DNA of 42,882 nucleotides. It comes from Anaerolineaceae bacterium. Its GTDB lineage: Bacteria; Chloroflexota; Anaerolineae; Anaerolineales; Anaerolineaceae. A program made the translations under genes and the position numbers. The notes beneath the pieces are model-generated. The model saw nothing but the letters and a program-made list of their open reading frames with translations. It ran no database searches and was not told the DNA's origin. Below, piece by piece: positions 7,224-38,200 of this stretch (its first letter is position 1; each line of letters begins with the position of its first letter). The stretch lies in assembly GCA_019429225.1 (NCBI GenBank), contig JAHYJK010000011.1:1-42882 (forward strand), given 5' to 3'.

Positions 7224-10200
7224 TCAGCTTAGCTTCACCCAGAGATGATGCACAATGCCATCCCGCCGGAAAATATGCTGGCTGTTGATTTCATCCAGGC
7301 AATCACCTGCGATTGTTTGTGTTGTGCCATCGTTCAGGAAAACTTCAATGCCAGAATTTTTGGCCAGTTGAACCACAATGGGCACCCCACAACAAGTGAA
7401 TCCCAGGCAGCCAGCGGGTAATTGGATCTGCTGGGATATATCATTGACATCCTGGTATTGGATCGTCCTGGGTTCCGAAAGAAGTTCGCTGGGGTCAAAT
7501 AACAGCGCATTGAAAGTAAGGCATCCATTCTTGATCACCAATCCAACCTCAGCCATTCTGGCGATGACTTCTTCTTTCACCAACCCGGTCATGCCAGGCT
7601 GTTTTGCTCCCTGCCCATTGGGTGTGTGCGAATAAGGATCGGTGGGAAATGCGCCAAATTTGGCTGGAGATTTGTAGAGTCCAAGACCTGCACGAATATC
7701 CTCATATTTTTCTATTAATCCGGCTGAGGAAGAGTCAAACTGGTATTTCAAGGCAGTTTCCTGGACAGCCAGCAGCAGCTTCGAAACCATGTGCCAGTAA
7801 ACACTCCCGAGTCCTTCGTAAGCAAAAAATTTCCCGGACCGCCCTGTAAACTCGGCATGGTGGAATACATCCTCAAATAAGGCTGCTATTTTTTCTCCTT
7901 CTGAAACGACTAATTCAGCCAATTCTGGTTGTTTTGCCAGATTTTCCAAAGCTTCGTACACATCTTTGGCATTGTGCAGTTCTCCGCCAAAATGATACAG
8001 TCCATCCAAATCTCGTACGAGCAATGTTTTATCCTGCTTTTCTGCCAGAATAGCTGGCAGTTGCAAATCTCCAATTTGATCCATCGAAATCGTATTTTTG
8101 GATAGAAAACCCGGTTGGGGTTTATCTGGATATAAAATGTAAGTGTTCTGATCTTCACGGAAGAGAGCACTGCTTCGTAAACTTTGCAATAGTGCCAGCG
8201 ATTCATCGCCGGAAAGCAGTCCTGAAGAAAGAATAGAAACCTGACCCTCCAGCATTTCCTTCAGATGGCTGATGCTGGCATTATTTTCACCGACATCCAA
8301 AATGTTGTAAGTATGAAAAAGCTGATCGCTGCGTTTGTTAGCACGCAAAGAATGTTCAATAAATTGTTGCACCAGGTCTAAGAACTCAAGCAAGTCATTA
8401 CTGCTGATCGAATTCAAATTCCCAGAGAAATTCTGATCGTAAATTTTCCAGCGATAATCACTACCAGCCTGCCCAAGCGCATCCATCATAGCACGACGTT
8501 GTTTGTTATCAAATTCTGACGCCAGGACTGGGTAAAACTGCTCAAAGATCTTTTTCATCTGGGCAAAAAGCAAAACAACTTCTTCGCTGATGCTTAAATT
8601 GATAGTTGTTTTTTTACTCAACAGTTCTCGACAAAAAACAATATACCGGCGCAAATAACCCAGAGTAACCACGGATAAACCCTTACCAACTAACGCGTTA
8701 TTGGCATCATTCCACTCCGGGCGTTGCGTGTTCATCCAGATACCGCCCTCCGGGACAAAATTAACCAGCTTCGCTAAAAGCAAGATAAGTAATTTTTCCC
8801 CAAGAGAGCGATGTAGAACCTGACCATCTGAATCAAACATTAATTTTCCGTCTGTTCCAAACAATTTAACTCTTTCATCAATCTCGCCTTCCATCGCATC
8901 ATCAAAATGGATGGTATTATACGGATCCTCCAATAGGTCAGAATAAGGTTTGATGCGGTATGGAATATTCGCAAAGCTCAGGATGTGCGATTCAAGGAAG
9001 TCGCTCAATCGCCCTGGATGGACCTTTGCACTGATTTCCATCAACTTCAACAAGTAAATAATCTGATGATCACTCCAATAGCCTATATTAGCCCAGGGAT
9101 TTCCTGGATCCGGGATTTCCCAATCCAGACCAGATCGTGTGATACGGTATGGATTATATCCATCGGCAGTGGTAGCGCTCAGAAAAGTGAAAATCATTCC
9201 TTCCACAAATTCCGGGTAGGAATACGACAATGCTTCCCAATTCTGGAAAATATCACGCCAGTTCCCTTCATAGTCCAGGCGCACAGATCCATCCGGTTTT
9301 TTTATATTGATCGTAAACTTATTCCAGGGACGACTGGGATCTCCATGTCGACGGCTAAAAGTCAATGGCAAATAGATGTAGCCCAGCCGGATGAGATCCG
9401 TTGAACCCTGAGTCTGTAATCGGGTATGGAAGTCCCAAATATGAATTTTCTTCGGCAGGTTCTTCAAAAATTCAGAATGAGTCTTATGCAGTTGGTGATG
9501 ATGGTTAGAGACAAACTCTGAAAAATCAGCACTGTCAATCCTATACTGGTCGGCAAAGGTGCCACCGCGCATCAAATTAAACATAACATTTGAAAAATGA
9601 TGTGAAGTTCGAAGAATATTAGCACTCAACTGCAACCCATCAGCGCTGGCAACAATATTTTCCAATTGGTGAGTGTTGGCATTAACGTCTTGCTCAATTT
9701 CCAGGCTAAGTTCAGCTGATTTTTTCCTGAGATGATGGATCGTGTTTACAATGTCAACTGCGTCCTGTTGAACGTCAGCCACAAAATACCAGATTTTTTC
9801 CTTACCAGGTGGCAAGGTCGCTTTGGCATGGATAAAATAGGCTCCACGGTGGCCACACACATCTACTTCTGGTGATATTTCCTTTCCCTCCCGAAATTCT
9901 TCTAATTGATTGGAAGAGAGTAAGTGACTAACCTGATCGAATCCAACTTGAAAAATTATCGTCGCCAATAATGATTCACTTGGTTCAGCTAAATCAGTCA
10001 AAGTAGCATTCAATGTATAGATCCCCAAACCTGTTTCAAGATCTAATTCACTGCGCTTATAAGCATCCAATAAGATGCTTAAGGTATTCTGTGTAGCAGA
10101 AGAAACATTTGCAGGCAGGACGTTCTGCAAACCATCCAACAATTCAATCTGAATAGTAGCTTCCGATGTGTTTGAGCTCTTAAGAGAAGAGGTTTTCACG

Positions 10201-10682
10201 AAACCAAATTTCTCACCGGTGCACCAGGAATACGTAAATGTTAAATCCAGGCTTTTATTAATTTCTTCAAAAATAACTTTGGTGCCAGGTACATTTTTGA
10301 ACAAATTTCTTTCAATCTGGTACTTCCCACATTGACGGGCTGAAAATGGTTCCCATAACCAGGTTTGATTATCATGAAAAATTCGAAATATCGTCTTGCT
10401 ACCAGTATTGTCATAATTATCAGTTAATTTATCTTCCGTGTAATAAGGGAATAACGCCTGTTCAGCGCTAACACGGCCAGCAGATATACCTCCATTCGAG
10501 GAGATAAACATCCAATGGTTAGAACTGCTTACCAGGTTTATGAAAAAAGGAGCTAACACATCAGAATTGGCAATCTTATAAAATTTTTCATTTTGAATAT
10601 TAATAAATTCTCCGGTTGTGTCAATGGTTGATTTTTGTTGAAATGTGTGCCCGATCCAAATTGGACGCGAATCTTTGTTCAT
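7224..10682 (-). CDS. GH94-like glycoside phosphorylase, candidate beta-1,3-glucan phosphorylase
   Basis: A 1152-residue cytoplasmic protein without signal peptide. Residues 1-330 look like a large beta-sandwich, about 350-1060 a helical (alpha/alpha) barrel, and the end a small beta-domain, the layout of GH94-type phosphorylases. Conserved-looking blocks are GGISAGRVSAEQALFP (64-79), RRHGDPSRPWNKF (444-456), GNWRDIFQNWEAL (473-485), ATTADGYNPYRIT (503-515) and IGYWSDHQIIYLL (533-545); Asp538 matches the position of the GH94 general acid (S-D-D/H motif). Large GH94-related proteins of 1100-1200 residues are known in families GH149 and GH161, both acting on beta-1,3-glucans with phosphate. Next to two GH16 glucanases and a sugar importer this is the most economical function, but the family assignment is by memory. 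A plain hydrolase is the alternative. GGGAG precedes the ATG. Confidence 0.55.
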   Translation of the reverse strand: MNKDSRPIWIGHTFQQKSTIDTTGEFINIQNEKFYKIANSDVLAPFFINLVSSSNHWMFISSNGGISAGRVSAEQALFPYYTEDKLTDNYDNTGSKTIFRIFHDNQTWLWEPFSARQCGKYQIERNLFKNVPGTKVIFEEINKSLDLTFTYSWCTGEKFGFVKTSSLKSSNTSEATIQIELLDGLQNVLPANVSSATQNTLSILLDAYKRSELDLETGLGIYTLNATLTDLAEPSESLLATIIFQVGFDQVSHLLSSNQLEEFREGKEISPEVDVCGHRGAYFIHAKATLPPGKEKIWYFVADVQQDAVDIVNTIHHLRKKSAELSLEIEQDVNANTHQLENIVASADGLQLSANILRTSHHFSNVMFNLMRGGTFADQYRIDSADFSEFVSNHHHQLHKTHSEFLKNLPKKIHIWDFHTRLQTQGSTDLIRLGYIYLPLTFSRRHGDPSRPWNKFTINIKKPDGSVRLDYEGNWRDIFQNWEALSYSYPEFVEGMIFTFLSATTADGYNPYRITRSGLDWEIPDPGNPWANIGYWSDHQIIYLLKLMEISAKVHPGRLSDFLESHILSFANIPYRIKPYSDLLEDPYNTIHFDDAMEGEIDERVKLFGTDGKLMFDSDGQVLHRSLGEKLLILLLAKLVNFVPEGGIWMNTQRPEWNDANNALVGKGLSVVTLGYLRRYIVFCRELLSKKTTINLSISEEVVLLFAQMKKIFEQFYPVLASEFDNKQRRAMMDALGQAGSDYRWKIYDQNFSGNLNSISSNDLLEFLDLVQQFIEHSLRANKRSDQLFHTYNILDVGENNASISHLKEMLEGQVSILSSGLLSGDESLALLQSLRSSALFREDQNTYILYPDKPQPGFLSKNTISMDQIGDLQLPAILAEKQDKTLLVRDLDGLYHFGGELHNAKDVYEALENLAKQPELAELVVSEGEKIAALFEDVFHHAEFTGRSGKFFAYEGLGSVYWHMVSKLLLAVQETALKYQFDSSSAGLIEKYEDIRAGLGLYKSPAKFGAFPTDPYSHTPNGQGAKQPGMTGLVKEEVIARMAEVGLVIKNGCLTFNALLFDPSELLSEPRTIQYQDVNDISQQIQLPAGCLGFTCCGVPIVVQLAKNSGIEVFLNDGTTQTIAGDCLDEINSQHIFRRDGIVHHLWVKLS

Positions 10683-10707: not shown

Positions 10708-11520
10708 CTAAGAATGAGATATTCTTACCCAATCTATCATATAACGAACTTCGTTTTTTTGTATTGATGTAACAGTTTCTTCAGGTAGACCATAAAATGG
10801 TTTCTTTAAACCATTGATTTTATAGGGATATCTACCACCGATTGCAAAATTTAAAACAATACTTTTTGGTTGATTAAAAATCCATGGACTGAAATATTCA
10901 ATCATTGGTTTGGTTACTCGATACACTAACTTATCATCAACGTAAAATTCCATACTTCTATCTTGTTGTAAATTTAATGAATAAACATGCCAATTTGTAA
11001 CATCATTGTAAGTAGGGAAATAGAAATAATTTACCAGTGCTGCATCTCCAGAATATCCTTTGCCATGCACTGCAGAACTGATCCAATCCGGTTCACCAAC
11101 GAACTCCATAATATCTATTTCTCCACAGCCTGGCCATGAGCCTTGCCCGATTAGCCAGAAGGCTGGCCATAAACCAGCGCCAAATGACATCTTAATTCTT
11201 GCTGAGATTTCGCCATGGATAAATTCAATCTTTCCCTTTGTATCAATTCGTCCGGAAATGAAATCAAAGGATTTACCTTCCCGGGTTATGTAGTTGGGAT
11301 GATATCTTGGGTGCAACACCAAAATACCATTTGCATCTGTCGGATCACCTGGTTCTGTGTAAACTGTTTCTAAAGAGTCAACGTAAGCTTGTTGTTCATG
11401 GTTGAAAATATCACCGGTGACCATAACATTCCAATGATCGCGATTAATCAGGTCACCGGTGAAATCCTCAAAAAATATTTCTTTATTTTTGTTTACGCTT
11501 GCATCATTTTCTCGTGTCAT
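10708..11520 (-). CDS. GH16 family endo-beta-1,3-glucanase-like protein without signal peptide
   Basis: A 270-residue GH16 enzyme. The catalytic signature GEIDIMEF places nucleophile Glu134, Asp136 and acid/base Glu139. Further GH16 landmarks are GLWPAFWLIG, the HGKGYSG loop after the active site, YVDDKLVYRV and the late VLNFAIGG. There is no hydrophobic N-terminus: the protein begins MTRENDASVNKNKEIFFEDF, so it is expected to be cytoplasmic or exported by another route. Laminarinases and licheninases of this type normally work outside the cell, which makes this one odd. It lies 25 bases upstream of the phosphorylase gene and 45 downstream of the lipoprotein GH16 gene, inside one operon. Substrate specificity (beta-1,3 versus mixed-linked) is inferred. 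Confidence 0.85.
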   Translation of the reverse strand: MTRENDASVNKNKEIFFEDFTGDLINRDHWNVMVTGDIFNHEQQAYVDSLETVYTEPGDPTDANGILVLHPRYHPNYITREGKSFDFISGRIDTKGKIEFIHGEISARIKMSFGAGLWPAFWLIGQGSWPGCGEIDIMEFVGEPDWISSAVHGKGYSGDAALVNYFYFPTYNDVTNWHVYSLNLQQDRSMEFYVDDKLVYRVTKPMIEYFSPWIFNQPKSIVLNFAIGGRYPYKINGLKKPFYGLPEETVTSIQKNEVRYMIDWVRISHS

Positions 11521-11565: not shown

Positions 11566-12384
11566 TTAATTTACTTTTTGGAAGACACGGACGTAATCTA
11601 CCAGATATTGTTTTGGAAATACAACATCCAGCCCAATCGGTCCAGGTAATTGTCCACCAAGTGCCAGGTTTAAAATTATGAAGAAAGGCTGGTCAAATAC
11701 CCATTGGCGATCTCCAACATCAGCATAAGTGACTGTGTGATACAACTCGCCATCAAAATACCAATCGATCTTTCCTTCTTCCCATTCGATGGCATATGTA
11801 TGAAAATCATCTGCAATATTGAATGTTTGCCGGTTCCATTGCCCAATGCCAAGCGCTCCAGAATAACCAGGCCCATGCGCAGTGCCCATAATTAGATCAG
11901 GTTCTTTTCCGATGTACTCCATAATATCAATCTCACCGCAATCTGGCCAATTTGATCCATCAAATGAGGAACCTAACATCCAGAAGGCCGGCCACAATCC
12001 TTTGTCTTCAGGAACTTTTAATCTGGCTTCAATTCGCCCATATTGAAAATTTTGAAGACCTTGCGTTTTTAATCTTGCCGAGGTGTAATAGGAATTTTCG
12101 TATTTTTCCTGTAAAGCTTCTATGACTAACATTCCCTTTTCAATGCGCGCATTTTCTGGACGGTCTGTGTAATATTGAGCTTCACCATTCCCCCATCCCC
12201 AACCACCAATATCATACGTCCAATTATTCGTGTTGATTGATTTTCCATCAAATTCATCATTCCAAACCAATTGGTAACCTGGAGGAGGGGTAATCTCTGC
12301 TGCTTTTGTAATACATCCAGTCAACGTTGTTATCAAAACAACAAGCAAGATTAATTTAAGGATGTTCTTGTGTTTCATATCCAT
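11566..12384 (-). CDS. GH16 family endo-beta-1,3-glucanase, lipoprotein
   Basis: A 272-residue protein with a basic start, a hydrophobic stretch (10-22) and the lipobox LTGC with Cys24, so it should be lipid-anchored outside the membrane. The GH16 domain follows: LVWNDEFDG at the first strand, GLWPAFWMLGS, the catalytic GEIDIMEY (Glu151, Asp153, Glu156), GTAHGPGYSG, WYFDGELYHT and LNLALGGQLPGP. These match the laminarinase-like branch of GH16. GGAG six bases upstream supports the ATG at 12384. It follows the MalG-like permease by about 60 bases. Together with the ABC importer it suggests cleavage of a beta-glucan at the cell surface with uptake of the fragments. Confidence 0.9.
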   Translation of the reverse strand: MDMKHKNILKLILLVVLITTLTGCITKAAEITPPPGYQLVWNDEFDGKSINTNNWTYDIGGWGWGNGEAQYYTDRPENARIEKGMLVIEALQEKYENSYYTSARLKTQGLQNFQYGRIEARLKVPEDKGLWPAFWMLGSSFDGSNWPDCGEIDIMEYIGKEPDLIMGTAHGPGYSGALGIGQWNRQTFNIADDFHTYAIEWEEGKIDWYFDGELYHTVTYADVGDRQWVFDQPFFIILNLALGGQLPGPIGLDVVFPKQYLVDYVRVFQKVN

Positions 12385-12446: not shown

Positions 12447-13286
12447 TTATCCTTTTACTGCTCCAGCTGTTAGACCAGAGACAATTTGACGTTGCAAGAC
12501 AAGGAATAAGACTAGCATGGGAAATGTCAACATTAAAACAGCTGCTGCTAATGTTGGCCAATTGCTTCCATACACACCTTGAAATACAATCAAACCACGG
12601 GTAATTGGATAGTAGTCTTTGTTGGTAAGATAAATGGTTGGAGCGATAATCTCATTCCAAATGCCAATCGCATGCAGAACAACGACAGTAGCAACCGCAG
12701 GTCGTATGAGTGGAAGAACTATTGACCACACAAAGCGTAAGTATCCACAACCTTCCAATGCTGCGGCTTCATCCAACTCTAAAGGCAGTGTTTTAATATA
12801 ATTCACCAAAATGATAATCCCAATCGGATTGACCAAAAACAACATGATATAACCAATCGGATTATTATAGAGGCCTAAACCCAGGATAAGACGAAACTGT
12901 GGAATGAGCGCAGGTGGCAAAAATAACGCGATTACAAAAAGGGTTAGCAGGGGTGTAGAAAATTTGACATATTTTCGCGATATTGGAAACGCCACAAAAA
13001 CAGCTGTAATGACATAGATAAATGTTGCCGTGAAAGTGTAAATGATTGAATTCCAAATATATTGTGGGAAATTTGCTTTTTCCCAGGCATCAGCAAAATT
13101 ACTGAAATTGAATGATGTTGTTATTCCAGTTGCATTCTTCATAAACTCTGGCATTGTTTTCAATGCTGTATTCACCAACATCAACAATGGTCCAAGGTAA
13201 GCCAGTACCAACAGAAATAAGAAAATATAAGATGCTACAAGCCCCCATTTAATTGATTTACCGTTGGATTCTTTAGCGTTTTTCAT
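12447..13286 (-). CDS. Carbohydrate ABC permease (CUT1, MalG-like)
   Basis: A 279-residue inner-membrane protein with about six transmembrane helices and the EAA loop ELDEAAALEGCGYLRFVWSIVLPLIRPA (residues about 177-204) that contacts the ATPase. The signature and the Ser/Thr-rich N-terminal loop match MalG/LacG-type sugar permeases. Its start overlaps the stop of the MalF-like gene by four bases (ATGA), indicating translational coupling. No ATP-binding subunit is encoded in this locus; a shared MsiK/UgpC-like ATPase elsewhere is expected. Confidence 0.92.
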   Translation of the reverse strand: MKNAKESNGKSIKWGLVASYIFLFLLVLAYLGPLLMLVNTALKTMPEFMKNATGITTSFNFSNFADAWEKANFPQYIWNSIIYTFTATFIYVITAVFVAFPISRKYVKFSTPLLTLFVIALFLPPALIPQFRLILGLGLYNNPIGYIMLFLVNPIGIIILVNYIKTLPLELDEAAALEGCGYLRFVWSIVLPLIRPAVATVVVLHAIGIWNEIIAPTIYLTNKDYYPITRGLIVFQGVYGSNWPTLAAAVLMLTFPMLVLFLVLQRQIVSGLTAGAVKG

Positions 13287-14212
13287 CCCATAATCCTTTC
13301 TTCCCGACGTCTTAAGAATGTTTGAACAGACAATCCTATCACCAATACTAAAACGAATAACACCATGGAAGCTGCTGCAGCATAGCCTTGCCTAAAACTG
13401 CTGGTTACACTTCCCGAAGTTTGTCCAAAGCCTACTGCGTAAATCAAATAACCTAAGACCTGTGTTCCATTGCGGTAACCAATTAAGACCAGGAATAACT
13501 GCCAGGCTTGTAAACTACCAATGATATTCAAAAGTAAATTTGTGTTAACACTGGGTGTTAACAATGGCCAGGTAACATTCTTAAAAACTTGCCAGTTATT
13601 TGCTCCATCCATTTCGGCTGCTTCATACATTTCAGATGGAATGGTTTGTAAACCAGATAAAAAGATCATCATGGTGATTCCCATATTCGCCCAGATTTGA
13701 ATGATAATGACCCAGATAAATGCTTCCGTGGGTGATCCTCCCAAAAATTCAGAGCGAAGACCAAAAAATTCAAATAACTTTGCCATTGGGCCACCAAGTG
13801 GGAAAAGGAACAGGGACCAGATCAGACCTTGAATGACTGCGCCTAGAATGACTGGCATAAAGAAAAGTGTTCGAAAAAAGTTCCGAGCACGAATTTTTGG
13901 GTTGTTTAATATAACCGCCGTGACCAACCCAAATAAGAATTGAATTGTTGTGACAAAAACTGAAAAAATTAACGTACGACCCAGCGCATCAAAATTATCT
14001 TTGGATGCCTGTCCCATAAAAAGGAATTCTTTATAATTATCCAACCCAATCCAATTAATTGTCGCACCTTTCAGACCGGTTGTATCTGTTAAAGAGAAGA
14101 TTGAGGTAGCTAAGGATGGCCCAAGCGAGATAATAAAGTAGAATGCTATACCCGGGAGTAATAGCAAATATGGGGTTAATCTTGATTTACCCCGACCAAA
14201 ATGGTAGTTCAT
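13283..14212 (-). CDS. Carbohydrate ABC permease (CUT1, MalF-like)
   Basis: A 309-residue permease with six hydrophobic helices, the first at about residues 15-35, and the EAA motif EMYEAAEMDGANNWQVFKNVTWPLLTP near the middle. It resembles UgpA/LacF/MalF-type partners of CUT1 importers. The start ATG at 14212 is chosen because AGGAGGAG lies just before it; a longer frame reaching 14269 would run through the upstream terminator hairpin. It forms a heterodimer with the following MalG-like protein. Confidence 0.92.
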   Translation of the reverse strand: MNYHFGRGKSRLTPYLLLLPGIAFYFIISLGPSLATSIFSLTDTTGLKGATINWIGLDNYKEFLFMGQASKDNFDALGRTLIFSVFVTTIQFLFGLVTAVILNNPKIRARNFFRTLFFMPVILGAVIQGLIWSLFLFPLGGPMAKLFEFFGLRSEFLGGSPTEAFIWVIIIQIWANMGITMMIFLSGLQTIPSEMYEAAEMDGANNWQVFKNVTWPLLTPSVNTNLLLNIIGSLQAWQLFLVLIGYRNGTQVLGYLIYAVGFGQTSGSVTSSFRQGYAAAASMVLFVLVLVIGLSVQTFLRRREERIMG

Positions 14213-14234
14213 TATTCTCCTCCTTCTATATAGA

Positions 14235-14266
14235 AAAGGCTTTCCACCGATTGGTGGAAAGCCTTT
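14235..14266 (-). terminator. Intercistronic hairpin between binding protein and permease
   Basis: AAAGGCTTTCCACC (14235-14248) pairs with GGTGGAAAGCCTTT (14253-14266) around a GATT loop: a 14-base perfect stem. On the - strand it follows the stop codon of the binding-protein gene by 12 bases and is followed by only a few T residues. It probably acts as a partial terminator or a 3' mRNA stabiliser that gives the binding protein higher expression than the permeases. Confidence 0.75.
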
Positions 14267-14278
14267 CAACGAAACGAA

Positions 14279-15622
14279 TTACTTTACAGCATCGAGACCA
14301 GATTGGAGGTCAGCTTGAACTTTATCTGCCAGTTCTTTTGCGTCATCATAAGTACCGAAGGGTTTGAAATAAGAAGCCCATGGATTGGCAAATTGTCCAG
14401 AACCCTTGGGAGCAATCCAATATTGCTCATAACCGACACGGAAGTTTTCCAGATATGGAGCAACTTCGGCACCGATTTTGGTGTCTAATGTAGCGCTTGG
14501 TTGTGTTGGAATGAATCCAACCGCATTGGCAAATGCCTGGTAATTTTCAGGGGTTGAGAACTCAGCTAAGTAATTTAGAGCTACTTCTTTATTTGGTGTA
14601 TTGGCAGCAATTGCCCAACCCTGATCATATTTGCCAAACAAGTACTTGTTATCATCTGCATTATCAGAACCAGGGAAAGGAATATATCCCCAATCAAACG
14701 CAGGTTCTGCAGCTTCGATTGCGGAGGCATACCAGGTTCCACCAGGGAACATAGCCACTGCGCCTGAAGCAAAACGACCAGGAGCAGCATCACCCGCCAC
14801 ACCACTGGCACCGGGTTCCATCATGTTCTGGGCATAAACTTTCATTTTTTCCCACATATCAAGCGCTTTTGCGTCATTCCATTTGATGGTTCCGGTCCAA
14901 AGACCTTCAACCAGAGCTGCCTGGTCAGGATAGATTGCGCCAGTCAAGCCATAAGCGCCAACAAAAATTGGCCAACCATCCTTACCTCCAGCCGTCATAC
15001 AGGGTGTTCCTGCAGCTGTGAATGTTTCACATGCTGTGACCAGCTCGTCCCAGGTTGTTGGAACAGTAACATTGTTAGCGGCGAATAAGTCTTTGTTGTA
15101 ATAAATGCCGCTATAGGAAACTCTACCAAGATTGACTGCGTACACTTTGCCATTAAAACTACCTGCATCATCAATGGTAGGCTGATCATAATTCTTTACA
15201 AATGCCTGATCAGAAATATCCATCAATAAACCAGCCTCAATCAATTGTTGCCAATTAGGTTTATCAACAAGCTTCATATAGGGTTGAGCGCCATTCGCAA
15301 AACCGAAAATGTCAATCACGTCGATATCATTGGCGGTTAATCTTGTCTGGGTCACAGTACTCAAGTCATTTGCATTAACAACTGACATGTCAATAGTCAC
15401 ATTCGGGTATTTATCACTGAAACTTTTGTTAAAAGCTTCCATGAATTCCACCATCGGAGGATTTTGATGGACTAGCACTCGAAGTGTTACTTTTTCTGCA
15501 GCTACTGGTTCACTGGATGACCCATCAGAAGTCGAGGGGGCAGTTTCTTTGGGGGCACAGGCGGCCAAAAAAATTGCAAAGACCATCAAAATAGTTATTA
15601 CTTTATAGATTTTCTTAAACAT
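14279..15622 (-). CDS. Sugar-binding lipoprotein of the ABC importer (SBP family 1)
   Basis: A 447-residue extracellular binding protein. The signal ends in LAAC with Cys22, a lipobox. It is followed by a Ser-rich linker and a mature domain with typical cluster-1 features: VTLRVLVHQNPPMVEFMEAF, IDVIDIFGFANG, YSGIYYNKDLFAANNVTVPTTWDEL, FASGAVAMFPGGTWYASAIE and ANTPNKEVALNYLAEF. It delivers oligosaccharides to the two permeases downstream. The GAAGGAG ribosome site lies ten bases before the ATG. It is the first large gene of the transport operon and the intercistronic hairpin after it fits high expression. Confidence 0.93.
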   Translation of the reverse strand: MFKKIYKVITILMVFAIFLAACAPKETAPSTSDGSSSEPVAAEKVTLRVLVHQNPPMVEFMEAFNKSFSDKYPNVTIDMSVVNANDLSTVTQTRLTANDIDVIDIFGFANGAQPYMKLVDKPNWQQLIEAGLLMDISDQAFVKNYDQPTIDDAGSFNGKVYAVNLGRVSYSGIYYNKDLFAANNVTVPTTWDELVTACETFTAAGTPCMTAGGKDGWPIFVGAYGLTGAIYPDQAALVEGLWTGTIKWNDAKALDMWEKMKVYAQNMMEPGASGVAGDAAPGRFASGAVAMFPGGTWYASAIEAAEPAFDWGYIPFPGSDNADDNKYLFGKYDQGWAIAANTPNKEVALNYLAEFSTPENYQAFANAVGFIPTQPSATLDTKIGAEVAPYLENFRVGYEQYWIAPKGSGQFANPWASYFKPFGTYDDAKELADKVQADLQSGLDAVK

Positions 15623-15728: not shown

Positions 15729-15923
15729 TCATTGTTCTTTTCGTGACCGAGAAGCAGCTAAAGATCGAGCTGCTTGATTTGGTTGATAACCATTCTCCCT
15801 GATCACTTGCCAAACTCGTGCTCGAATTTCAGATCGCACTCCAGGGCGATCATTAATCACTCGGGAAGCTGTTGCCAGTGAGACATTTGCTAGTTTTGCT
15901 ACTTCTCTTAACGTGATAGTCAT
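15729..15923 (-). CDS. Free-standing LacI-family DNA-binding domain (64 residues)
   Basis: The 64 residues are a nearly complete LacI/GalR headpiece: [21 protein letters not shown] is the helix-turn-helix (residues 4-24), [22 protein letters not shown] the third helix and loop, and [14 protein letters not shown] the hinge helix. After this the frame stops with TGA, and no effector-binding domain is found in any frame in the 106 bases before the next gene. The headpiece sequence is intact and not obviously decaying, with GAGGG ahead of the ATG. It may be a small repressor, a cut-down pseudogene, or the split-off DNA-binding part of the LacI-like sensor encoded just upstream, whose own N-terminus lacks this domain. 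Confidence 0.75.
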
Positions 15924-15978
15924 AATTGCCCAGATCCCTCATTCCCAATATGAGACCGCTTTCATTCACATTGTATTG

Positions 15979-16022
15979 ACATGGAGTTTTTTTTACATGG
16001 ACAAAAAAGTGGATGACATGAA
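15979..16022 (-). promoter_or_regulatory. Three direct repeats upstream of the LacI-headpiece/transport operon
   Basis: ACATGGA (15979-15985), ACATGGA (15995-16001) and ACATGAA (16016-16022) are spaced 16 and 21 bases apart, start to start. On the - strand they precede a TACAAT -10-like box about 50 bases before the headpiece gene; the -35 is poor, as in an activated promoter. Direct repeats with such spacing are typical of AraC-type regulators, and the neighbouring hybrid sensor ends in an AraC-type domain. Confidence 0.4.
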
Positions 16023-16092
16023 CGATTCATAGAACCTGGATAAATTTCAAATATCCAAATTCTTTTTGACTATAAAAATGACGAGAAAAAAA

Positions 16093-19000
16093 TCAGATCA
16101 AAGATCGATATTCACCAGGAGAAACTCCCGTTTCTCGATGAAATATCCGGCTGAAGTATCCACTATCCAAAAAACCAACCTCAAAAGCAATTTCAGTGAT
16201 GCTCTTTTGGCTTGCCTTTAGCAACATCTTTGCCTGATTGATTCTGAAGCGTTGTAAATATTTAATGGGTGAAATACCTAGTTCTTGTCTGAAACAAAAA
16301 GTCATGTAATCTTCTGATATATTGACTAATGTTGCTAAATCTTGTCTGGATATTTGTTCTGAAAAATGTTCATGAATATATGACATGGCTTGTCGGACTA
16401 ATTTTTTTGCTTCCTGATTTAGTTTACGTTTCTGCTCGAGTGCATTGGTAATATGAATTACAGTTTCTTCTCTGCTAAACATGCCCTTGTTTAGGATAGT
16501 AGTCACACCTTGATTTAAACGGGACATATCTTCATCAGTTAATACTTTTCCAGTGACAACAATTACAGGAATTTCACGCAGCTTTTTGTCAGCCCGCATA
16601 GCTTCCAATACACCAAAACCATCTAATTTCGGCATTTGCAAATCTAACAACACCACATCAACTTTTTCCTTCTTAAGTATATTTAAGGCTTTGAATCCAT
16701 CCTGAGCCTGCAAAACGCGATAAGAGGAAGATTGTGACTTTACAATTCGAGAATGAACCTCCAAAGTATTGGGGTCATCATCCACAACTAGAAATGTCCT
16801 TACAGCCTGATCAGATTCAAACATAAGACGAACATGATCAAATGCCTGTGTTAAGTCTGAAAGTTCTATTGGTTTGGTGAGATAATCAAGATTCAGTAAC
16901 CCATCACCTTCATCTGAGAAAGAATAGAACAAGATAGGGATTCCCCTGGCCAAATGGCTGTTTTTAATTTCTCTCAGAACATTCCAACCCAGATCTGATT
17001 GTATACTCACATCCAGAATAATCGCATCCGGAGGAAACTTTGATAGTAATGACATCCACTGGGATGGCTGGTCCATCAGAACAATTTTTACATCAATGCC
17101 ACGGTTTTCTAAGAGAGTGCAAAGCTGTTTGCTTGTATTATCCTGTGTTACTAAAAACAAAACGGTTGGTTTGATTTGTGACACAGTAATATCTGTCAAA
17201 TCTTGGTCAAGAGGTTGGCCAACAGTGGATAAAGTAAAATAAAAACAGGAGCCTTCCCCCTCCACTCCAGATGATTCTAATCCTATTTTTCCATTATGAA
17301 TTTCAATGAGCATCTTGCTGATGGAGAGACCTAATCCTAAGCCTGGGTATCCCAGCTCAATGCTTCGTTCCGATCGGCGAAATTCATTAAAAATTAGAGA
17401 CTGTTCTTCCAGCGGTATTCCCAAACCTGTATCACAGACACGAATTGTCACATTTCCATCACCAGTTTCAACTGTCATACTTACTGATCCATAGGTTGTG
17501 AACTTTACTGCATTGTTTACGAGATTGAGGACGACTTGTCGTAAACGTGTACGATCTCCCCAAACGAAGGGGCCGGTTTGAGGTATATCTGCTTTCCAAA
17601 TCAATCCTTTATCAGCTGTTAATTGAGAACCACTATCAGCAACCAATTTAAGCAACTCACCTAAATTAATCATTTCCATATTTAATCGCAATTGTCCAGC
17701 TTCATTCGATGCCAGATCAATGACATCACCAATCAATCCACCCAGATGTTGAGCATAGGCATTGATGCGACTGATATCTTGTTGAACTGACTCTGGCAGA
17801 AGTGATTTTTCTTCATCACTTTCCTCCATCAAGATTCCACTCAAGCCCACGATTAAATTTAAAGGAGTACGTAGTTCATGACTGATGGTCGATAGAAAAT
17901 TACTTTTCATGCGATTTGCTTCTTCAGCCAAACGACGCCCCTCAGTTGCATGCCGATATAATCGCGCTTTATTGAGTGCACCACCAAGTTGCTGAACAAT
18001 AGCTCCATATAAATCCAGGTGTTCAGAATCGAATGCAATGAATCCGAGCTGTTTAGTGGGGTCTACGACAGGGATCAAAGTTAATTGAAACGCTGTATCA
18101 GGATCAAACAAGCCGGGAGGTGGAAACATTTGAATGTCAGTTTTTATTGGCTGTTGATCACGAACTAATAAATTCCCAATAGACCAGCTTTGGTCCAGAT
18201 CTTCTTCCTTACCTTCAATTAAACTCAACATTGCCGTTTGAATATTCATTGCTGGTAAGTAATCTGCAAGAATTTCAAAAATCTGCTGTTCATCGAGAGC
18301 ATTCAACAATCTGGCAGTTAACAAACTTAACTGACTGGCTTTCCAGCGTTCATCGATAATGTACTGGCTATGGTATCTCTGAACTTGAAGACTGATCTTT
18401 AATCGGCCCTCACTTATCATATTTTTGCTGATGGATCCGAACGAAAGATTTGTTCCGTAAGTTTCCGAACTCCATTTTTCCAGTAAAGAAAGTGCGGCTT
18501 GCCAGATGTGAGGATCATCATTACTGCTTGTCGTTATTCGGAGAGTCTCTTCAAGTATATGGCTAAAAGTTTGACTATTACCAGATTGAATTCCTTTCAG
18601 AAAAGCTTTGACCAGGTTCTGGGATAATGATAGACATTTTTCTTCGGTAAGATTTTGTGCCTGGTTCATAACAGCTGTGGAAATTAACCCAACAAGATAA
18701 GAAATCTGTTCGTCACTAGTAGATAATTGTATTTCTTTATTCGCCACAGGATCATTTACGAAATTCATGGGTTGGTTACAACCACATGATTCCCTGATAA
18801 CGAGACGGGTCTCCACATACTCACGTTCATTTAAATCAGTACTTCCTTCAAGATGCGCAAGCATCAATTCAACAGCACGATACCCCAGCGAGAATAAGGG
18901 AACATGGATACTGCTGAGCCCTGGTTCATTGACAGCTCCCTCAAGTCTATTATCGAAACCGATAATAGCTACATCTTGTGGGATTTTTCTTCCAGCCTCT

Positions 19001-19827
19001 TCAATCGCTTTCATGGCACCTAATGCAGACTCATCATTACTGGCCAGCGCAGCTGTAAAATCAACTCCACCATTCAGCAACTCCTGCATGGCATGAAAGC
19101 CGCCCGGATACACATGCCGGCCATAGACAATCAAACGTGGGTCCTGAGCAAAACCAAATTGTTCACAACCCAGTTGGTAAGCCTTCAAACGCTCTCCACT
19201 ATCCCCTTCCATATCCTCCAGCGTACCAGCAATAAAGGCCACTCGCTGATGTCCATGACCTTTCAAGTGTTGTAAGGCGTCAAATATACCACTGGAATTA
19301 TGAGCAACGATTGAAGGCCCATTTTCGCCCGCACCAATAAATATTACTGGATGTCCTACAGTTATCACCTTCCTGACATAATCAGATCGTTCTTTGGAGT
19401 GAAGTGGATTGGCAATAATGAGTCCATCCGTATTTTTGAGCCCAATTGGAACATAATCGTTTTCTGAAGAAATCATTGGCCAGGCAGGTCGTAGAGGATC
19501 GGTTGGACTGGCTGAAGGTCCGAGACCACAACCTAACAGTAAATTACAACCAAAATCGCGAGCAGCACAACTGATTCCGCGAAACACTGGATCCAGATAG
19601 CTTAGGTTTGTTGCCGTCCGGTAAAATTGCCATCCAGCTAATACACCAAGCGTAGGTCTACTGTGTCGGAAATTATTACCCATCTTAATATTGTATACCT
19701 TTTTGGAAGATCTTTTTCTTCCCGGGTTACCAGACTCCAATACCATACCGCTCATGGATACTAAGACCAATCTACTACTGATTAAAAATTGGGTATGCAG
19801 TTTTCGAACCCTGATCCAAAGGTTCAT
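16093..19827 (-). CDS. One-protein sugar-sensing hybrid: LacI-type sensor, histidine kinase, two receivers, AraC-type output
   Basis: A 1244-residue protein. Residues 57-350 are a LacI/periplasmic-binding-like sensor (TLGVLAGWQF, HGHQRVAFIAGT, ASNDESALGAMKAI, IIGFDNRLEGAVNEPGLSSI). Residues about 370-620 are helical with a GAF-like part. The kinase follows with FLSTISHELRTPLN (His650), the N box LNLVNNAVKF and G boxes DTGLGIP and GLGLGLSISK. Receiver 1 (885-1000) keeps Asp939 but lacks the acidic pair; receiver 2 (1010-1125) has VVDDDPN and Asp1062. The end (1143-1244) is an AraC-type double helix-turn-helix. No membrane helix is visible, so it should sense a sugar inside the cell. Functionally it resembles Bacteroides hybrid two-component regulators but with a cytoplasmic LacI-like sensor. 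Met49 (19683) is an alternative start closer to the first sensor strand; no strong ribosome site supports either. Confidence 0.88.
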   Translation of the reverse strand: MNLWIRVRKLHTQFLISSRLVLVSMSGMVLESGNPGRKRSSKKVYNIKMGNNFRHSRPTLGVLAGWQFYRTATNLSYLDPVFRGISCAARDFGCNLLLGCGLGPSASPTDPLRPAWPMISSENDYVPIGLKNTDGLIIANPLHSKERSDYVRKVITVGHPVIFIGAGENGPSIVAHNSSGIFDALQHLKGHGHQRVAFIAGTLEDMEGDSGERLKAYQLGCEQFGFAQDPRLIVYGRHVYPGGFHAMQELLNGGVDFTAALASNDESALGAMKAIEEAGRKIPQDVAIIGFDNRLEGAVNEPGLSSIHVPLFSLGYRAVELMLAHLEGSTDLNEREYVETRLVIRESCGCNQPMNFVNDPVANKEIQLSTSDEQISYLVGLISTAVMNQAQNLTEEKCLSLSQNLVKAFLKGIQSGNSQTFSHILEETLRITTSSNDDPHIWQAALSLLEKWSSETYGTNLSFGSISKNMISEGRLKISLQVQRYHSQYIIDERWKASQLSLLTARLLNALDEQQIFEILADYLPAMNIQTAMLSLIEGKEEDLDQSWSIGNLLVRDQQPIKTDIQMFPPPGLFDPDTAFQLTLIPVVDPTKQLGFIAFDSEHLDLYGAIVQQLGGALNKARLYRHATEGRRLAEEANRMKSNFLSTISHELRTPLNLIVGLSGILMEESDEEKSLLPESVQQDISRINAYAQHLGGLIGDVIDLASNEAGQLRLNMEMINLGELLKLVADSGSQLTADKGLIWKADIPQTGPFVWGDRTRLRQVVLNLVNNAVKFTTYGSVSMTVETGDGNVTIRVCDTGLGIPLEEQSLIFNEFRRSERSIELGYPGLGLGLSISKMLIEIHNGKIGLESSGVEGEGSCFYFTLSTVGQPLDQDLTDITVSQIKPTVLFLVTQDNTSKQLCTLLENRGIDVKIVLMDQPSQWMSLLSKFPPDAIILDVSIQSDLGWNVLREIKNSHLARGIPILFYSFSDEGDGLLNLDYLTKPIELSDLTQAFDHVRLMFESDQAVRTFLVVDDDPNTLEVHSRIVKSQSSSYRVLQAQDGFKALNILKKEKVDVVLLDLQMPKLDGFGVLEAMRADKKLREIPVIVVTGKVLTDEDMSRLNQGVTTILNKGMFSREETVIHITNALEQKRKLNQEAKKLVRQAMSYIHEHFSEQISRQDLATLVNISEDYMTFCFRQELGISPIKYLQRFRINQAKMLLKASQKSITEIAFEVGFLDSGYFSRIFHRETGVSPGEYRSLI

Positions 19828-19926: not shown

Positions 19927-19928
19927 AG

Positions 19929-20000
19929 TGAGCGCGCAGGGGCTCGAACCCTGAACCAATGGCTTAAAAGGCCACTGCTCTACCATTGAGCTACGCGCCC
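19929..20000 (-). tRNA. tRNA-Lys (anticodon TTT)
   Basis: A 72-base cloverleaf on the - strand: acceptor stem GGGCGCG/CGCGCTC with discriminator A, D-arm GCTC-loop-GAGC, anticodon stem GTGGC/GCCAT with loop CTTTTAA (anticodon TTT), five-base variable region, and T-arm CAGGG-TTCGAGC-CCCTG. The 3' CCA is not encoded. It has its own promoter and terminator. A degraded copy of its D-arm/anticodon region lies 13 kb away at 6936-6965 in the same orientation, marking this gene as the probable insertion site of the glucan locus. Confidence 0.95.
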
Positions 20001-20656: not shown

Positions 20657-20992
20657 TTTTCGTCTCCTATTTTCTAAAGTTTTTAGTTTTGATGTGTCGG
20701 ATTATCGAGAATTTTGTTTTCAATAAACAATGTTTGTATAATGTTTAATAATATATTTACAATGTTTTGTAGAATCAATAAATTCACTTTGCATTTCCGA
20801 AAAAGTTGCGATAATTGGAGAAACCAAAATTATATTAATTCTTGATGTCCAGATTGTTTGAGAAGATAGTTATTTATTTATCTATATTGGTTGAGTTTTC
20901 AAAAACTCATCTCTACGCCATATTTGCAAATTAGACCTAATTATCATACACTTATCGTATCTTTTTCTCGTCCTCAAGGAGTTATTCTTATT
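20657..20992. other. Divergent intergenic region (fasciclin gene / kinase gene)
   Basis: A 336-base, very AT-rich gap that must carry promoters for both genes. On the + strand TATAAT at 20737-20742 has a weak TTGTTT 17 bases upstream; on the - strand GATAAT near 20700 could serve the fasciclin gene. A near-perfect palindrome TGAGTTTT-C-AAAAACTCA lies at 20892-20909, about 85 bases before the kinase start, and may be an operator. No further gene is seen. Confidence 0.4.
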
Positions 20993-23125
20993 ATGGAACT
21001 TGAATACAATACCTTCTTACGTGATCGCTATCGGGTGGAAAAACAACTCGGAAAAGGTGGCATGGGCGCTGTATATCTGGCGTTGGATACCGTCTTGCAG
21101 ATGAAAGTGGCAGTCAAAATTAACCAGAACCCGCGCCAGGAAGGACGAGAACAATTCTTGCAGGAAGCACGCTTGTTGGCTGGTTTACGCCATCCCAATC
21201 TTCCGCGGGTTATTGATTATTTTGTGATTGAAGATAGCCAATACCTGGTGATGGATTTTATCCCTGGTGATGACCTGGGCGCCATCGTCAAGCGTGAAGG
21301 AAAACAGGAAGTCGATAAAGTGCTTTATTGGGCTAAACAACTCGGGAAAGCCCTTAATTATCTCCACACACAGGAACCCCCTGTCATTCACAGAGATATT
21401 AAACCCGGCAACATCAAAATCACCCCTCGCGGCGAGGTAATCCTAGTGGATTTTGGTATTGCAAAGTCTTCAGATATTACTCAGGAAACCTCCACCGGCG
21501 CCAGAGGGCTTACCCCTGGTTACTCACCACCTGAACAATATGGTTCTGGTCGAACTGGACACTACTCTGATCAATTTGGGCTGGCTGCTACACTTTACAA
21601 CGTCCTGACCAATGAAAAGCCTGTGGATGCAGTAGAACGACTGCTCGGCCAGGCTACCCTCAAACCAATCCATGAATTAAACCCGGATGTTCCTCCTCAT
21701 ATTGAAGAGGTTATTACAAGAGCGCTATCCATTAAACCAGAGGATCGTTACAGTTCCATTCTCGATTTTGTTCAATCATTAGGACAATCCAGTATCCCTG
21801 GTCCGGACGAAACGATGATCGCTCCTGTGCGAACAACCCCGGCTCAAAAACCACAACCAGTCATGAATGCAGAAGCGACCCGTGTTGGAGCTTCTTCACC
21901 CGTTCCATCCACTCCTGTCTCCACACCGGTCTCCTCATCGCCTTCCTATCCCATCTCGCAACCTGCACAAAAACAAAAATCCAAATTGATCTGGTTCATT
22001 CCAGTTGTATTAGTCGTAGGCGCCATCGTTTTATTTGGTGGGGGTTGGTTTGTGTGGAACACATTCCTGGTTGAAAAAGAGACACCTCCACCTGCAACAG
22101 CTAATGTAGTTTTATTTACGGAAACTTCTGTTCCGATCCTTGTTCCAGTCGAAGAATCAACACCCACTTATACGCCTGAGCCGATACCTACTGATACCCA
22201 GGAGCCAACCGCTACCGACATTCCAGAACCCACCATCACCCCGACTCAGGCGTATCCCAGTATTGGGCGTGATGGGATTGTGGCGTATGTCAGTGATGTC
22301 GGAGATGGGGAAACATTCCAGCTCTGGACAATGAAAGTGTATAAACAACCAGATGGCACGTTAATCGCTGGAGACCAAACACAATTAACAACCAATCCAG
22401 GAAACAAATCTTACCCCAACTGGTCACCTGATGGGACAAAAATAATCTTCTCGGCTGAAAGTGGTGATACGGAAAATAAAATTGACTTATACACAATCAA
22501 TGTTGATGGCAGTGGCTTGTCCAATCTCATTGCAATTCCGGGCAATGAAACAGAAGCAGCCTGGTCTCCAGATGGTGAGTGGATTGTTTTTACAATAGAT
22601 AATCGCTCTGATGGTATCAAACAATTGATGATTGTCCGCCCAAATGGAACTGATTTAAGGCGTTTGAGTACAGATAAGCAGGAGTTTTCTCCAGAATGGT
22701 CACCTAAGATGGATCGCTTGGTTTACGTACTTCCATCATCCAGTTTGCGCTATTTATGGATGCGTGATCCAGCGAATGATTTTGTGGATATGGAAAGAGA
22801 TATGTTCTACATGCGTCTTAAATATATGGGCGACCCTGCCTGGTCTCCAGATGCTTTATGGATGGCTTACACCAATGTTCAGGGACGTACCCAGGATGTT
22901 TACTTGACACGAATCCTTTCCTTTGGTCTGGAAGTTAAACGATTGACAAACACAACCTTTGACTCCTACCCGGCCTGGTCACCTGATTCTACCTGGATCC
23001 TATTCCAATCAAATCGTGATACAAACATGGAAATTTACATTATGGATATCGATGGCCAAAATCAGACAAACTTGACTTTAAGCCCCGATTCTGATGAAAT
23101 GCACCCTGCCTGGCAATTAAAATAA
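20993..23125 (+). CDS. Transmembrane Ser/Thr protein kinase with extracellular TolB-like beta-propeller
   Basis: A 710-residue receptor-like kinase. Residues 12-265 are a PknB-type kinase: GKGGMGAVYLA loop, catalytic Lys42, HRDIKPGN with Asp135, and LVDFGIAKS with Asp153. A Pro/Ser/Thr-rich linker (270-330) leads to one membrane helix (332-353), a second Thr/Pro-rich spacer, and an outer domain with at least five PD40/WD40-like repeats (YPNWSPDGTKIIFS, AAWSPDGEWIVFT, PEWSPKMDRLVYV, PAWSPDALWMAYT, PAWSPDSTWILFQSNRD). Such propellers could bind a ligand or wall component. ATG 20993 is chosen because the kinase fold starts directly after it and AAGGAG is present 12 bases upstream; an ATG-less extension reaches 20891. 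The targets are unknown. Confidence 0.93.
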   Translation: MELEYNTFLRDRYRVEKQLGKGGMGAVYLALDTVLQMKVAVKINQNPRQEGREQFLQEARLLAGLRHPNLPRVIDYFVIEDSQYLVMDFIPGDDLGAIVKREGKQEVDKVLYWAKQLGKALNYLHTQEPPVIHRDIKPGNIKITPRGEVILVDFGIAKSSDITQETSTGARGLTPGYSPPEQYGSGRTGHYSDQFGLAATLYNVLTNEKPVDAVERLLGQATLKPIHELNPDVPPHIEEVITRALSIKPEDRYSSILDFVQSLGQSSIPGPDETMIAPVRTTPAQKPQPVMNAEATRVGASSPVPSTPVSTPVSSSPSYPISQPAQKQKSKLIWFIPVVLVVGAIVLFGGGWFVWNTFLVEKETPPPATANVVLFTETSVPILVPVEESTPTYTPEPIPTDTQEPTATDIPEPTITPTQAYPSIGRDGIVAYVSDVGDGETFQLWTMKVYKQPDGTLIAGDQTQLTTNPGNKSYPNWSPDGTKIIFSAESGDTENKIDLYTINVDGSGLSNLIAIPGNETEAAWSPDGEWIVFTIDNRSDGIKQLMIVRPNGTDLRRLSTDKQEFSPEWSPKMDRLVYVLPSSSLRYLWMRDPANDFVDMERDMFYMRLKYMGDPAWSPDALWMAYTNVQGRTQDVYLTRILSFGLEVKRLTNTTFDSYPAWSPDSTWILFQSNRDTNMEIYIMDIDGQNQTNLTLSPDSDEMHPAWQLK

Positions 23126-34897: not shown

Positions 34898-35265
34898 GCA
34901 ACCCCGTCAAGAATCTCTTTTAACCGTCTGTTTAGATCATCCGGTGCAAATGGTTTCAATAAATAATCCACTGCTCCAGCTTGTAAACCAGCTTTTATTT
35001 CCGAGTCCTGCCCTTTTGCGGAAAGAAATACGATTGGTATGTTTTCGGTTTTTGGATCATTTTTAATTTTTTCACAGGCTTCATATCCAGACATAACGGG
35101 CATACGTACATCTAACAGGATCAAGTCTGGCATGATTTTCTTTGCCATCTGACATGCTTGTTCTCCATTTGCAACTGAAACGACTTCATGTCCCACATAT
35201 TTCAGGGTAAATTCGATCAGATCCCGGATATCCTGTTCATCTTCAGCGATCAGTATCTTTGCCAT
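34894..35265 (-). CDS. Single-domain response regulator
   Basis: A 123-residue receiver domain: ILIAEDEQD acidic pocket, phospho-acceptor Asp52 in LILLDVRMP, switch Ser in IVFLSAKGQD, conserved Lys in YLLKPFAPDD. No output domain. It starts within the stop codon of the large kinase (TAATG, one base shared), so the two are translationally coupled and it is the kinase's probable first target. Confidence 0.93.
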   Translation of the reverse strand: MAKILIAEDEQDIRDLIEFTLKYVGHEVVSVANGEQACQMAKKIMPDLILLDVRMPVMSGYEACEKIKNDPKTENIPIVFLSAKGQDSEIKAGLQAGAVDYLLKPFAPDDLNRRLKEILDGVA

Positions 35266-38200
35266 TAAGCATTAACCTTTTCAAGTTTAATAGGGAGCAT
35301 AATTGTGAATGTTGATCCTTCTCCTGGAATGCCAGATGATTCCATTTTTATGTTTCCTCCATGCATTTCAATGAGGGTACGGGCAATTGACAAACCTATA
35401 CCAGTTCCTGCAGAATTCACATTGACTGCATTCTTGCCTCTAAAGAATCTTTCAAAAATATGTTCCTGTTCATCTCTGGCTATTCCAACTCCAAGATCTG
35501 CAACCTCAATATTGATAAATTCCCCCAGGGATTCTAGAGAAATTGTGATTACACTTTCGTCGTACGAATATATTCTGGCATTATTGAGAATATTTAATAA
35601 AACCTGTTCGATTCTTTCCGGGTCAGCCATGATGGAGGGAATTTTTCCAATTGGATTGATTTGATAAGAGATTTGTTTTGAATCAAACATTGCAGAATTT
35701 TTGTGAATTTCAACAATATTGTTTATTTTTGACAGCAGGTCGAATGATTCAGGTCTCAGAACGATATTTCCGGTTTCAATCCTGGAAACATCCAGAATAT
35801 CATCAACCAGTGATTTTAATCGATTTGTGTTTGACTGAATAATCTCTAAAAAGCGCTTTTGTTGTTCATTGATCATACCTGATGCACCCATCAGCAAAAC
35901 TTCTACATACCCTTTGATCGATGTCATTGGCGTACGTAACTCATGGCTGATATTGGAAATAAAATCCGTCTTCAACTGGTCTATCTGTACCTCGACAGAA
36001 ATATCTCTAAAAACTGAGACTGTACCTAAAAAGTCATTACGCCAAATTACAGGTGATAGATGCACAGAAATGACTTGATTTTCACTTAAGTTAATTTTTT
36101 CAGAAATTACTGCATCCGACTTGATTTTTGATGGTTGATTTGTCCAATCATAAATCATTGAAATCCAATGATTAATTTTGTCTCCATAATAAGTTTGCAA
36201 TCCCCGTAATGAATGATCGATCGCATTTTCTTCGATCTTTAAAATGTTATTTGCGGATTTATTTAAGAGCATAATCTCCGATTGGACACCTGTAACCAGG
36301 ACACCATCGGCAACCGCTTCCAGAATGGCTTGTGATCGACTGGCTTCAACTTCCTGATCTCGCAACATTGAACCAAGATTTTCAGATTGATCACGGACTA
36401 ATTTAAAGATCTCAGTATTATTTAGAGCCATACTGATCTGACCGGCAATTGCTTCACCTAATTCCAGATCCCGATTGGTAAAGAAATCAGGTGATTCATG
36501 GAAAATCGATAAGATGCCCAAAATCGACTCCCCAAATTTTAACGGGATAAACATCCAACTTGAAAAAGGTATCGTAGGGTTTTCTTTAGAGAAATTTTCA
36601 ACAAGAATTGAATTTTTCTCTGCAAATACTTTATTGAAATAGGTTTCTACTGAATCTAGTGGAATTACGGTTTCATCATTGGTTGGTTGATGAATTGCCT
36701 GGAATGTTTTCTCGCCTTCCAGGACATATACCAGACTACCTGACACATTCATCGAGTAATTAATCATTTTCAATGTGCTATCCAGAATCTGATCGATATC
36801 CATACTGCCAGAAAGTTCGTTTGATATTTTGAGTAGCATCTCAGTATTGCGATGTTCTAAAACAAGTTCTTTGGTACGTTCATCCACACTTTCTTCCAGG
36901 TTTTCTTTCAACTCTACTGTCTCTGACAGTAAATAGGCATTATTGATAGCCATTGAAGCTTGATTTGCTAAAGTCATTGCCAATTCGGTTTCATCGTGTA
37001 AAAAGCGCCTTGATGTTGGAGATTCCAATGCAATCCACCCAAACACTTTATCTGAACTCTGCAAGGGAATTAATAACACTGATTTTGTACCTCGCTGAGA
37101 AAAATAATGTTGTAGTGAATCATCAATCTCATTTTCTTCAGCGATATCCTGAATGTGAGATGTACCGCGAGATTGAATTAATTTCTCGAAAAGTGGTTGT
37201 TGATTAACGTTTAAATTGGGAAAGTGTTCTAACGCTGGTTTTTGGAATGACAATTTTACATCACCATTTCCACTTAATAAAAATATAGAAATCATTTCAC
37301 AATTGATAATATTCAAAACGTAATCGGCTGTTAACTTTGTGATGTGGGATATATCCAACGAGCGATTAACCTCAGATGAAAATTGGTTCAACCAGGTCAA
37401 TTTTTGAGTTCGTTCATCAAGTTCTGATCCTCTTCTAAGCGAATCCTGATACAAACTGGCATTATCCAAAGCGATCGCTGCCTGAGAAGCAAAGGCTTCG
37501 GCCAATTGCACCAGCTCTTCGTTATAATAATTTTTTTCTCTTTTCTCTAAGGCGATCACTCCAATAACTTCGGTTTTTGAAATCAGAGGTATACCCAGCC
37601 AGGATAAATTTTCAATTTCCATTAATGATGGAAAACGTATATCTTCTCTTATATCCGAAATGAGAACGGATTTTTTGGTGTTGAACATCTCCTGAAAGAG
37701 CAGAGAATCATCGATTTGCACTTGTAAGCCCGTTCTGTCCTCTTTATCCGTAAATCCGTCTGTTGCAATAACTCTTAATTGATTTTTCTCTTTTTCCCAC
37801 AAAGTTGCAGTTTGATAATCAATCAATTGTCTCAATTTAATCAACAAAGAATTTTGTAATTCCTGTCGATTCAAACTGGCTGAAATAGTTTTAGAAAGAT
37901 CTGAAAGAATTTTTAGTCTTTCTGATTGTTTTTCAGTGGTCAAAAATAGATCAGCATTCGCTAATGCTAAATTTGCCTGTTGTAATAAAGAAAGAGTGAT
38001 CGATTCATCTTCATCAGAAAAGGCTTTCTCTTTATTAAAAACCTCCAATATCAGTACACCAATACATTGATTCGATGAGATCAATGGTGCTTGAAGGCAG
38101 GCACATGGAATTTGATTTTGAGTAGCTCGTAAATATAGAACTGCTTCTGTTTCAGTCAACCGATAATTCACAGGAAAATCCATATCATTCAACATAAGTG

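Follow-up and report, generated by a model that had tools for sequence, protein, structure and literature searches.

In the window, as we call the whole 42,882-nucleotide stretch of Anaerolineaceae DNA analysed here, one open reading frame joins a LacI-type sugar sensor to a histidine kinase and an AraC-type output, and this raises the question of where such a protein senses its sugar and how it acts on DNA. A sequence-only reading had proposed that a LacI core, a linker, a kinase, two receivers and an AraC-type end follow one another in this single frame, without a visible membrane helix, and that the protein would sense a sugar inside the cell and act on DNA in a single chain. The frame (16093..19827, reverse strand) encodes 1244 residues counted from the first ATG. 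Pfam matches above cut-off place Peripla_BP_3 at residues 186-348 (E 1.8e-27), HisKA at 640-711, HATPase_c at 757-867, Response_reg at 1013-1116, together with a second, weaker receiver stretch, and HTH_18 at 1164-1241. These matches bear out the proposed order. The features of the locus are collected in Table 1. A tRNA-Lys (TTT) gene lies just upstream of the kinase gene (19928-20000, reverse strand), and elsewhere the window encodes a serine/threonine kinase fused to WD40-like propeller repeats (20891-23125, forward strand) and a second large signalling protein, a 1727-aa frame (35265-40448, reverse strand) whose final part includes a histidine kinase region and which has receiver-like frames in its vicinity.

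Table 1. Features of the kinase locus, in window coordinates.
Feature	Position	Strand	Basis or remark
Soluble hybrid kinase	16093..19683	-	LacI core, tentative globin-like part, GAF fold, HisKA/HATPase, two receivers (the first degenerate), AraC end; start probable
LacI-type sugar-binding core, about residues 49-350 of the 1244-aa frame	18778..19683	-	Pfam Peripla_BP_3, PDB sequence matches, fold
Linker, residues 347-647	17887..18789	-	Globin-like helical domain (about 370-500, tentative), GAF fold (about 491-627), helix into kinase
Direct repeat, 21-bp period, ATGAATCGTTCATGTCATCCACTTTTTTGTCCATG	15996..16030	-	Candidate site of the AraC end of the kinase
-10-like hexamer TACAAT	15970..15975	-	About 20 nt after the repeat
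LacI-type operator TGAAAGCGGTCTCA, 5/7 pairs	15951..15964	-	Nearest relative has TGAAAGCGTTTTCA
Free LacI headpiece, 64 aa, without sugar-binding core	15729..15923	-	Pfam LacI, E 7.1e-18
ABC importer sugar-binding lipoprotein	14279..15622	-	Pfam SBP_bac_8
ABC permease 1	13283..14269	-	Pfam BPD_transp_1
ABC permease 2	12447..13286	-	Pfam BPD_transp_1
GH16 glucanase, lipoprotein-like signal	11566..12384	-	Pfam Glyco_hydro_16, N-terminus
Second GH16 protein, no evident signal	10708..11520	-	
GH149 beta-1,3-glucan phosphorylase	7224..10682	-	NCBIfam equivalog match at 1552.7 bits (cut-off 1150)

The kinase appears to be soluble. Translation probably starts at M49 (position 19683), leaving the first 48 codons untranslated, because a 79%-identical homolog begins at the equivalent position and the 48-residue extension is unconserved. 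It is within this extension that the 19-residue hydropathy mean peaks, at 1.40; a permease and a lipoprotein from the window, used as positive controls, gave 2.66 and 2.38. By hydropathy, neither the kinase nor some 40 homologs have a membrane helix or a signal peptide, and most of the homologs start 10-25 residues ahead of the sensor, without a clear helix. The absence of a visible membrane helix, as first read from the window, thus extends to the relatives. Pfam found no LacI helix-turn-helix headpiece on the chain either, and the homologs open directly at the core.

The sensor matches the LacI family in sequence, not extracellular receptors: residues 49-365 match 54 PDB sequences, and all 54 belong to regulators of the LacI family. 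With an AlphaFold model of the full-length chain (pLDDT 72.6), the best folds are those of LacI (Z 27.4), CcpA, CelR-cellobiose and PurR (Z 25-27). Periplasmic ribose-binding proteins come slightly below (Z 24), as both groups share the fold; sequence and the missing export signal therefore decide the location of the sensor more than the fold does. AscG and CelR-cellobiose, both beta-glucoside regulators, are among the nearest sequences and folds. R213 (in GERLxAY), N264 and D265 (ASNDE) and D292 (GFDNR), which we take from these motifs to be the sugar-contact residues of LacI, are invariant in 40 homologs. These results support the first reading, and we infer that the core reads an internal sugar.

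Between sensor and kinase, the linker had been described as GAF-like, which fits its second part only. Pfam recognises no domain in this region. In a model built from 37 homologs (pLDDT 88), the second part has a GAF fold, to which numerous GAF domains align over about 125-150 residues with Z 10-11. The first part is closest to a stressosome protein's N-domain (3zta; Z 13.4, with 130 of 139 residues aligned) and to phycobiliproteins (Z 10-11, with a globin-like arrangement), and we call it globin-like only tentatively, because helical models can reach scores of this size by chance. The kinase motifs that follow are intact. The two receivers announced for the chain are both present, but the first is degenerate: it has no acidic pair, positions 893-896 being unconserved, and its Asp939 is found in 32 of 40 homologs. 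The second retains all catalytic residues (D1016, D1017, D1062, T1092 and K1114), and both His650 and Asp1062 are invariant in the 40 homologs.

Such kinases are a recurrent family of the Anaerolineae, judging from a search with the linker that recovered homologs in 18 of 147 family genomes and in 33 of 396 genomes of the class, almost all of them about 1200 aa long; some of the class-level homologs (G037) end in GGDEF. Named records with a homolog include Anaerolineaceae, Longilinea arvoryzae, Levilinea, Caldilineales and Thermoflexales. These were recovered with the alignment as query, a contig scan with the single kinase protein having given no matches, and two homologs (L068 and L074) are broken into several frames in their assemblies. 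In most close relatives, the kinase gene adjoins importer, permease, GH16 and GH149 genes, as it does in the window. The locus is apparently an operon for the import and phosphorolysis of beta-1,3-glucan of the laminarin type, and the kinase, paired with a small, putative DNA-binding neighbour described below, apparently controls the use of this storage glucan.

Two conserved DNA elements lie between the kinase gene and this operon. The one closer to the kinase stop is a direct repeat, ATGAAnnGTCCA-N11-CTTTTnTCCAnG, whose half sites are 21 bp apart. It is kept with 0-3 mismatches in most kinase loci, whether or not they have the small gene, and has diverged (6-7 mismatches) in the distant loci L064, L137, L143 and L144. 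At up to three mismatches it has a single match in each of three genomes (that of the window, G007 and G002), always at the promoter of the kinase operon, and a control pattern read backwards gave one match in six genomes. In most homologous loci a -10-like hexamer stands at the same place, some 20 nt past the repeat. These regularities make the repeat a candidate binding site for the AraC domain of the kinase.

The small gene between kinase and importer encodes the helix-turn-helix and hinge region of a LacI repressor and nothing more. The claim of action in a single chain hence holds for the kinase itself and not for the module, which has this separate headpiece gene and the two DNA elements besides. 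The headpiece frame stops after 64 codons, and no core was found in any frame of the 107 nt ahead of the importer gene, which rules out a frameshifted core. About 15 genomes have a headpiece of 62-81 aa at the same position, and those of L070 and L057 lack an ATG and have TTG and GTG in frame. An assembly artefact is unlikely, because the gene order repeats in many independent assemblies, even though the named records with a headpiece are metagenome assemblies. Among the 111 LacI helix-turn-helix matches listed from 12 genomes, only four are short frames, all at this site; a class-wide census gave only full-length frames among the best matches listed, matches like the free headpiece being weaker. 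Ratios of pN/pS between 0.14 and 0.43 over a large divergence indicate that the gene is under purifying selection.

The history of the free headpiece looks like that of a repressor that shed its sensor and retained its DNA-binding part. Two genomes carry a half-length LacI, made of the headpiece and the N-subdomain of the core (L069 7979-8521 and L071 10163-10705; 177 aa from the motif), with a GGGAGCGCTCCC operator upstream. In this form constraint is stronger on the headpiece (pN/pS 0.14) than on the half core (0.43), and the form may be an intermediate on the way to the free headpiece. We also considered that one LacI gene was literally split into the core of the kinase and the headpiece. 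The half core of L071 has no significant similarity to the core of the window's kinase (E 19) or to the kinase of its own locus (E 0.36), so that loss of the core from a separate repressor is likelier.

The second DNA element is a CG-centred palindrome of the LacI operator type, found about 32-51 nt ahead of the headpiece gene in most loci. The best copies have 5-7 of 7 pairs, many with a shuffle p near 0.01; that of the window is imperfect and among the weaker ones (p 0.03-0.09). The motif AGCGNT stands behind the repeat in 13 of 15 loci with the headpiece and in 1 of 18 without it, which is significant by a plain Fisher test (2e-6) but comes down, once corrected for relatedness, to three independent pairs, too few for significance; the association is suggestive. 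In L040 and L144 the headpiece lacks a typical operator. L073 is the reverse case: no headpiece gene was found there, yet 137 nt past the stop of the kinase gene, where the operator usually lies, it has the palindrome GAGAGCGCTCTC. The type of operator tracks the recognition residues of the headpiece, SLAT occurring with TGAAAGCGTTTTCA and SR[TSA]T with GGAAGCGCTTCC, in keeping with a published recognition code for these positions (PMC2978694). In most loci the operator lies 40-42 bp behind the repeat, about four helical turns, the exceptions being the window's clade (35) and L071 (47). We propose that the headpiece binds this operator. A full-length LacI of the same genome (L156), with the similar recognition helix SIATVSR, could instead be its actual user.

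Taken together, we lean, if only slightly, towards a two-layer control in which the kinase activates the operon on imported glucan and the headpiece autorepresses it; domains, residues, conservation, the positions of the sites and the uniqueness of the repeat are observed, and the ligand, the phosphotransfer, both DNA-binding events and the direction of each effect are deduced from the sequences. An imported beta-1,3-gluco-oligosaccharide, or a close metabolite, would bind the LacI-type core, and the signal would travel through the globin-like and GAF parts of the linker to the kinase. His650 would be phosphorylated and the phosphate passed to Asp1062 of the second receiver, the first being degenerate. 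The AraC end would then bind the direct repeat and activate the promoter from which headpiece, importer, glucanases and phosphorylase are transcribed. The headpiece, encoded by the first gene of this transcript, would bind the operator, which lies just past the -10 box, and repress the operon that it belongs to. It would thus be a brake that ignores sugar and whose level rises and falls with operon output. Free LacI headpieces bind DNA weakly, so this one may need a partner. The wider claim, that in Anaerolineae the functions of a lac-type repressor are divided over neighbours, with the sensing core in an activating kinase and the free headpiece as a specific operator-binding autorepressor, we put forward with reserve, as falling a little short of an even bet.

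Several observations could be explained otherwise. The kinase might control the operon while the headpiece is the remnant of a neighbouring LacI repressor, its operator being a relic or serving another full-length LacI. The half-length forms of L069 and L071, the lineages without a headpiece and the similar helix of L156 all fit this, but drift is not expected to leave such low pN/pS ratios over a large divergence, to retain alternative start codons or to make recognition helix and operator co-vary, and we regard a remnant as unlikely. The headpiece might instead assist the kinase, by binding or bending DNA next to the AraC site and so aiding activation. The nearly constant distance between operator and repeat in most loci would suit a helper; the deviating spacings of the window's clade and L071 would not, and an operator behind the -10 box is in the classical position of a repressor, which makes a helper quite improbable.

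The input of the kinase leaves room for other explanations. In place of the imported glucan, its ligand could be another compound, such as free glucose or a sugar phosphate, or the ligand could inhibit the kinase: LacI-family cores bind diverse metabolites, and the context of the locus points to a pathway and not to an exact ligand. We hold this to be distinctly improbable, given that the kinase is kept beside one pathway in most close relatives and that beta-glucoside regulators are among its nearest folds and sequences. That the kinase is simply a hybrid regulator of the ordinary Bacteroides type, sitting in the membrane or sensing outside the cell, seems extremely improbable, in spite of the identical order of kinase, receiver and AraC end and of the fold shared with periplasmic ribose-binding proteins, because about 40 homologs lack a signal or membrane helix and the sensor sequence matches the LacI family only.

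Under the two-layer control that we favour, the output logic of hybrid kinase-AraC regulators would be fed from inside the cell by a LacI core, in a phylum other than Bacteroidetes and with a predicted DNA site. If the wider claim of functions divided over neighbours holds, a stand-alone LacI headpiece would be a natural, selected transcription factor and not a laboratory fragment. Its conservation raises the question of what minimal piece of a repressor can make a specific switch. L069 and L071, with their half-length LacI, would offer natural examples of sensor shedding and of the rewiring of control. We found no natural headpiece-only LacI protein and no LacI-core hybrid kinase in the open-access literature, which is weak evidence of absence.

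Several known systems share parts of this arrangement. In LacI-family repressors (CelR, AscG, CcpA, LacI), the core corresponds to the sensor of the kinase and the headpiece to the free protein, with an operator of the same type. There the two form one chain and here they are two proteins, the headpiece being devoid of the core that binds the effector and dimerises. E. coli XylR, in which a LacI-type ligand domain is fused to an AraC DNA-binding domain, is a cytoplasmic one-component regulator under direct allosteric control, without kinase or receivers. It shares with our protein the cytoplasmic LacI-type sugar sensor and the AraC output in a single chain, to which the latter adds kinase and receivers. 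Hybrid kinases of the ShkA type (6qrj), the best Foldseek match of the whole model, likewise continue from the kinase into two receivers, the first of them degenerate, but have neither LacI core nor AraC output. ShkA is controlled by c-di-GMP. Within our own data, the LacI core is a modular input feeding different signalling outputs, because it also occurs, at the N-terminus and without export signal, in proteins whose C-terminal output is GGDEF, as in G037 and G051, or a kinase that lacks an AraC domain, as in L076 and L101. These differ from our protein in lacking the AraC end, and no headpiece gene stands beside those examined. In one locus (L045 2356-18696, of G051) five LacI-core proteins lie in a row; Pfam, applied to one of them and to the G037 relative, gave a GGDEF output.

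The hybrid two-component regulators (HTCS) of Bacteroides, such as the fructose sensor BT1754 (PMC3404733, PMC3878776), likewise combine a sensor, a kinase, a receiver and an AraC domain in a single polypeptide encoded next to a glycan-use locus. Their sensors are by definition periplasmic and membrane-anchored (PMC3878776), and the family has been described as restricted to Bacteroidetes (PMC3404733, PMC3878776). Our protein has the kinase, receiver and AraC end in one chain but no periplasmic sensor with a membrane helix: it has a soluble LacI core, a linker of globin-like and GAF parts and an extra, degenerate receiver, and it belongs to Chloroflexota. The published motifs of the Bacteroides hybrid regulators are direct repeats with a period of about 21 bp (PMC3878776), and by sequence match and uniqueness a predicted site of this kind (period about 20-21 bp) stands close to the glycan operon that adjoins our kinase gene. 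The kinase is hence a variant of the hybrid two-component regulator that departs from it in the periplasmic sensor, and the conserved free headpiece next to it is the more surprising of the two.
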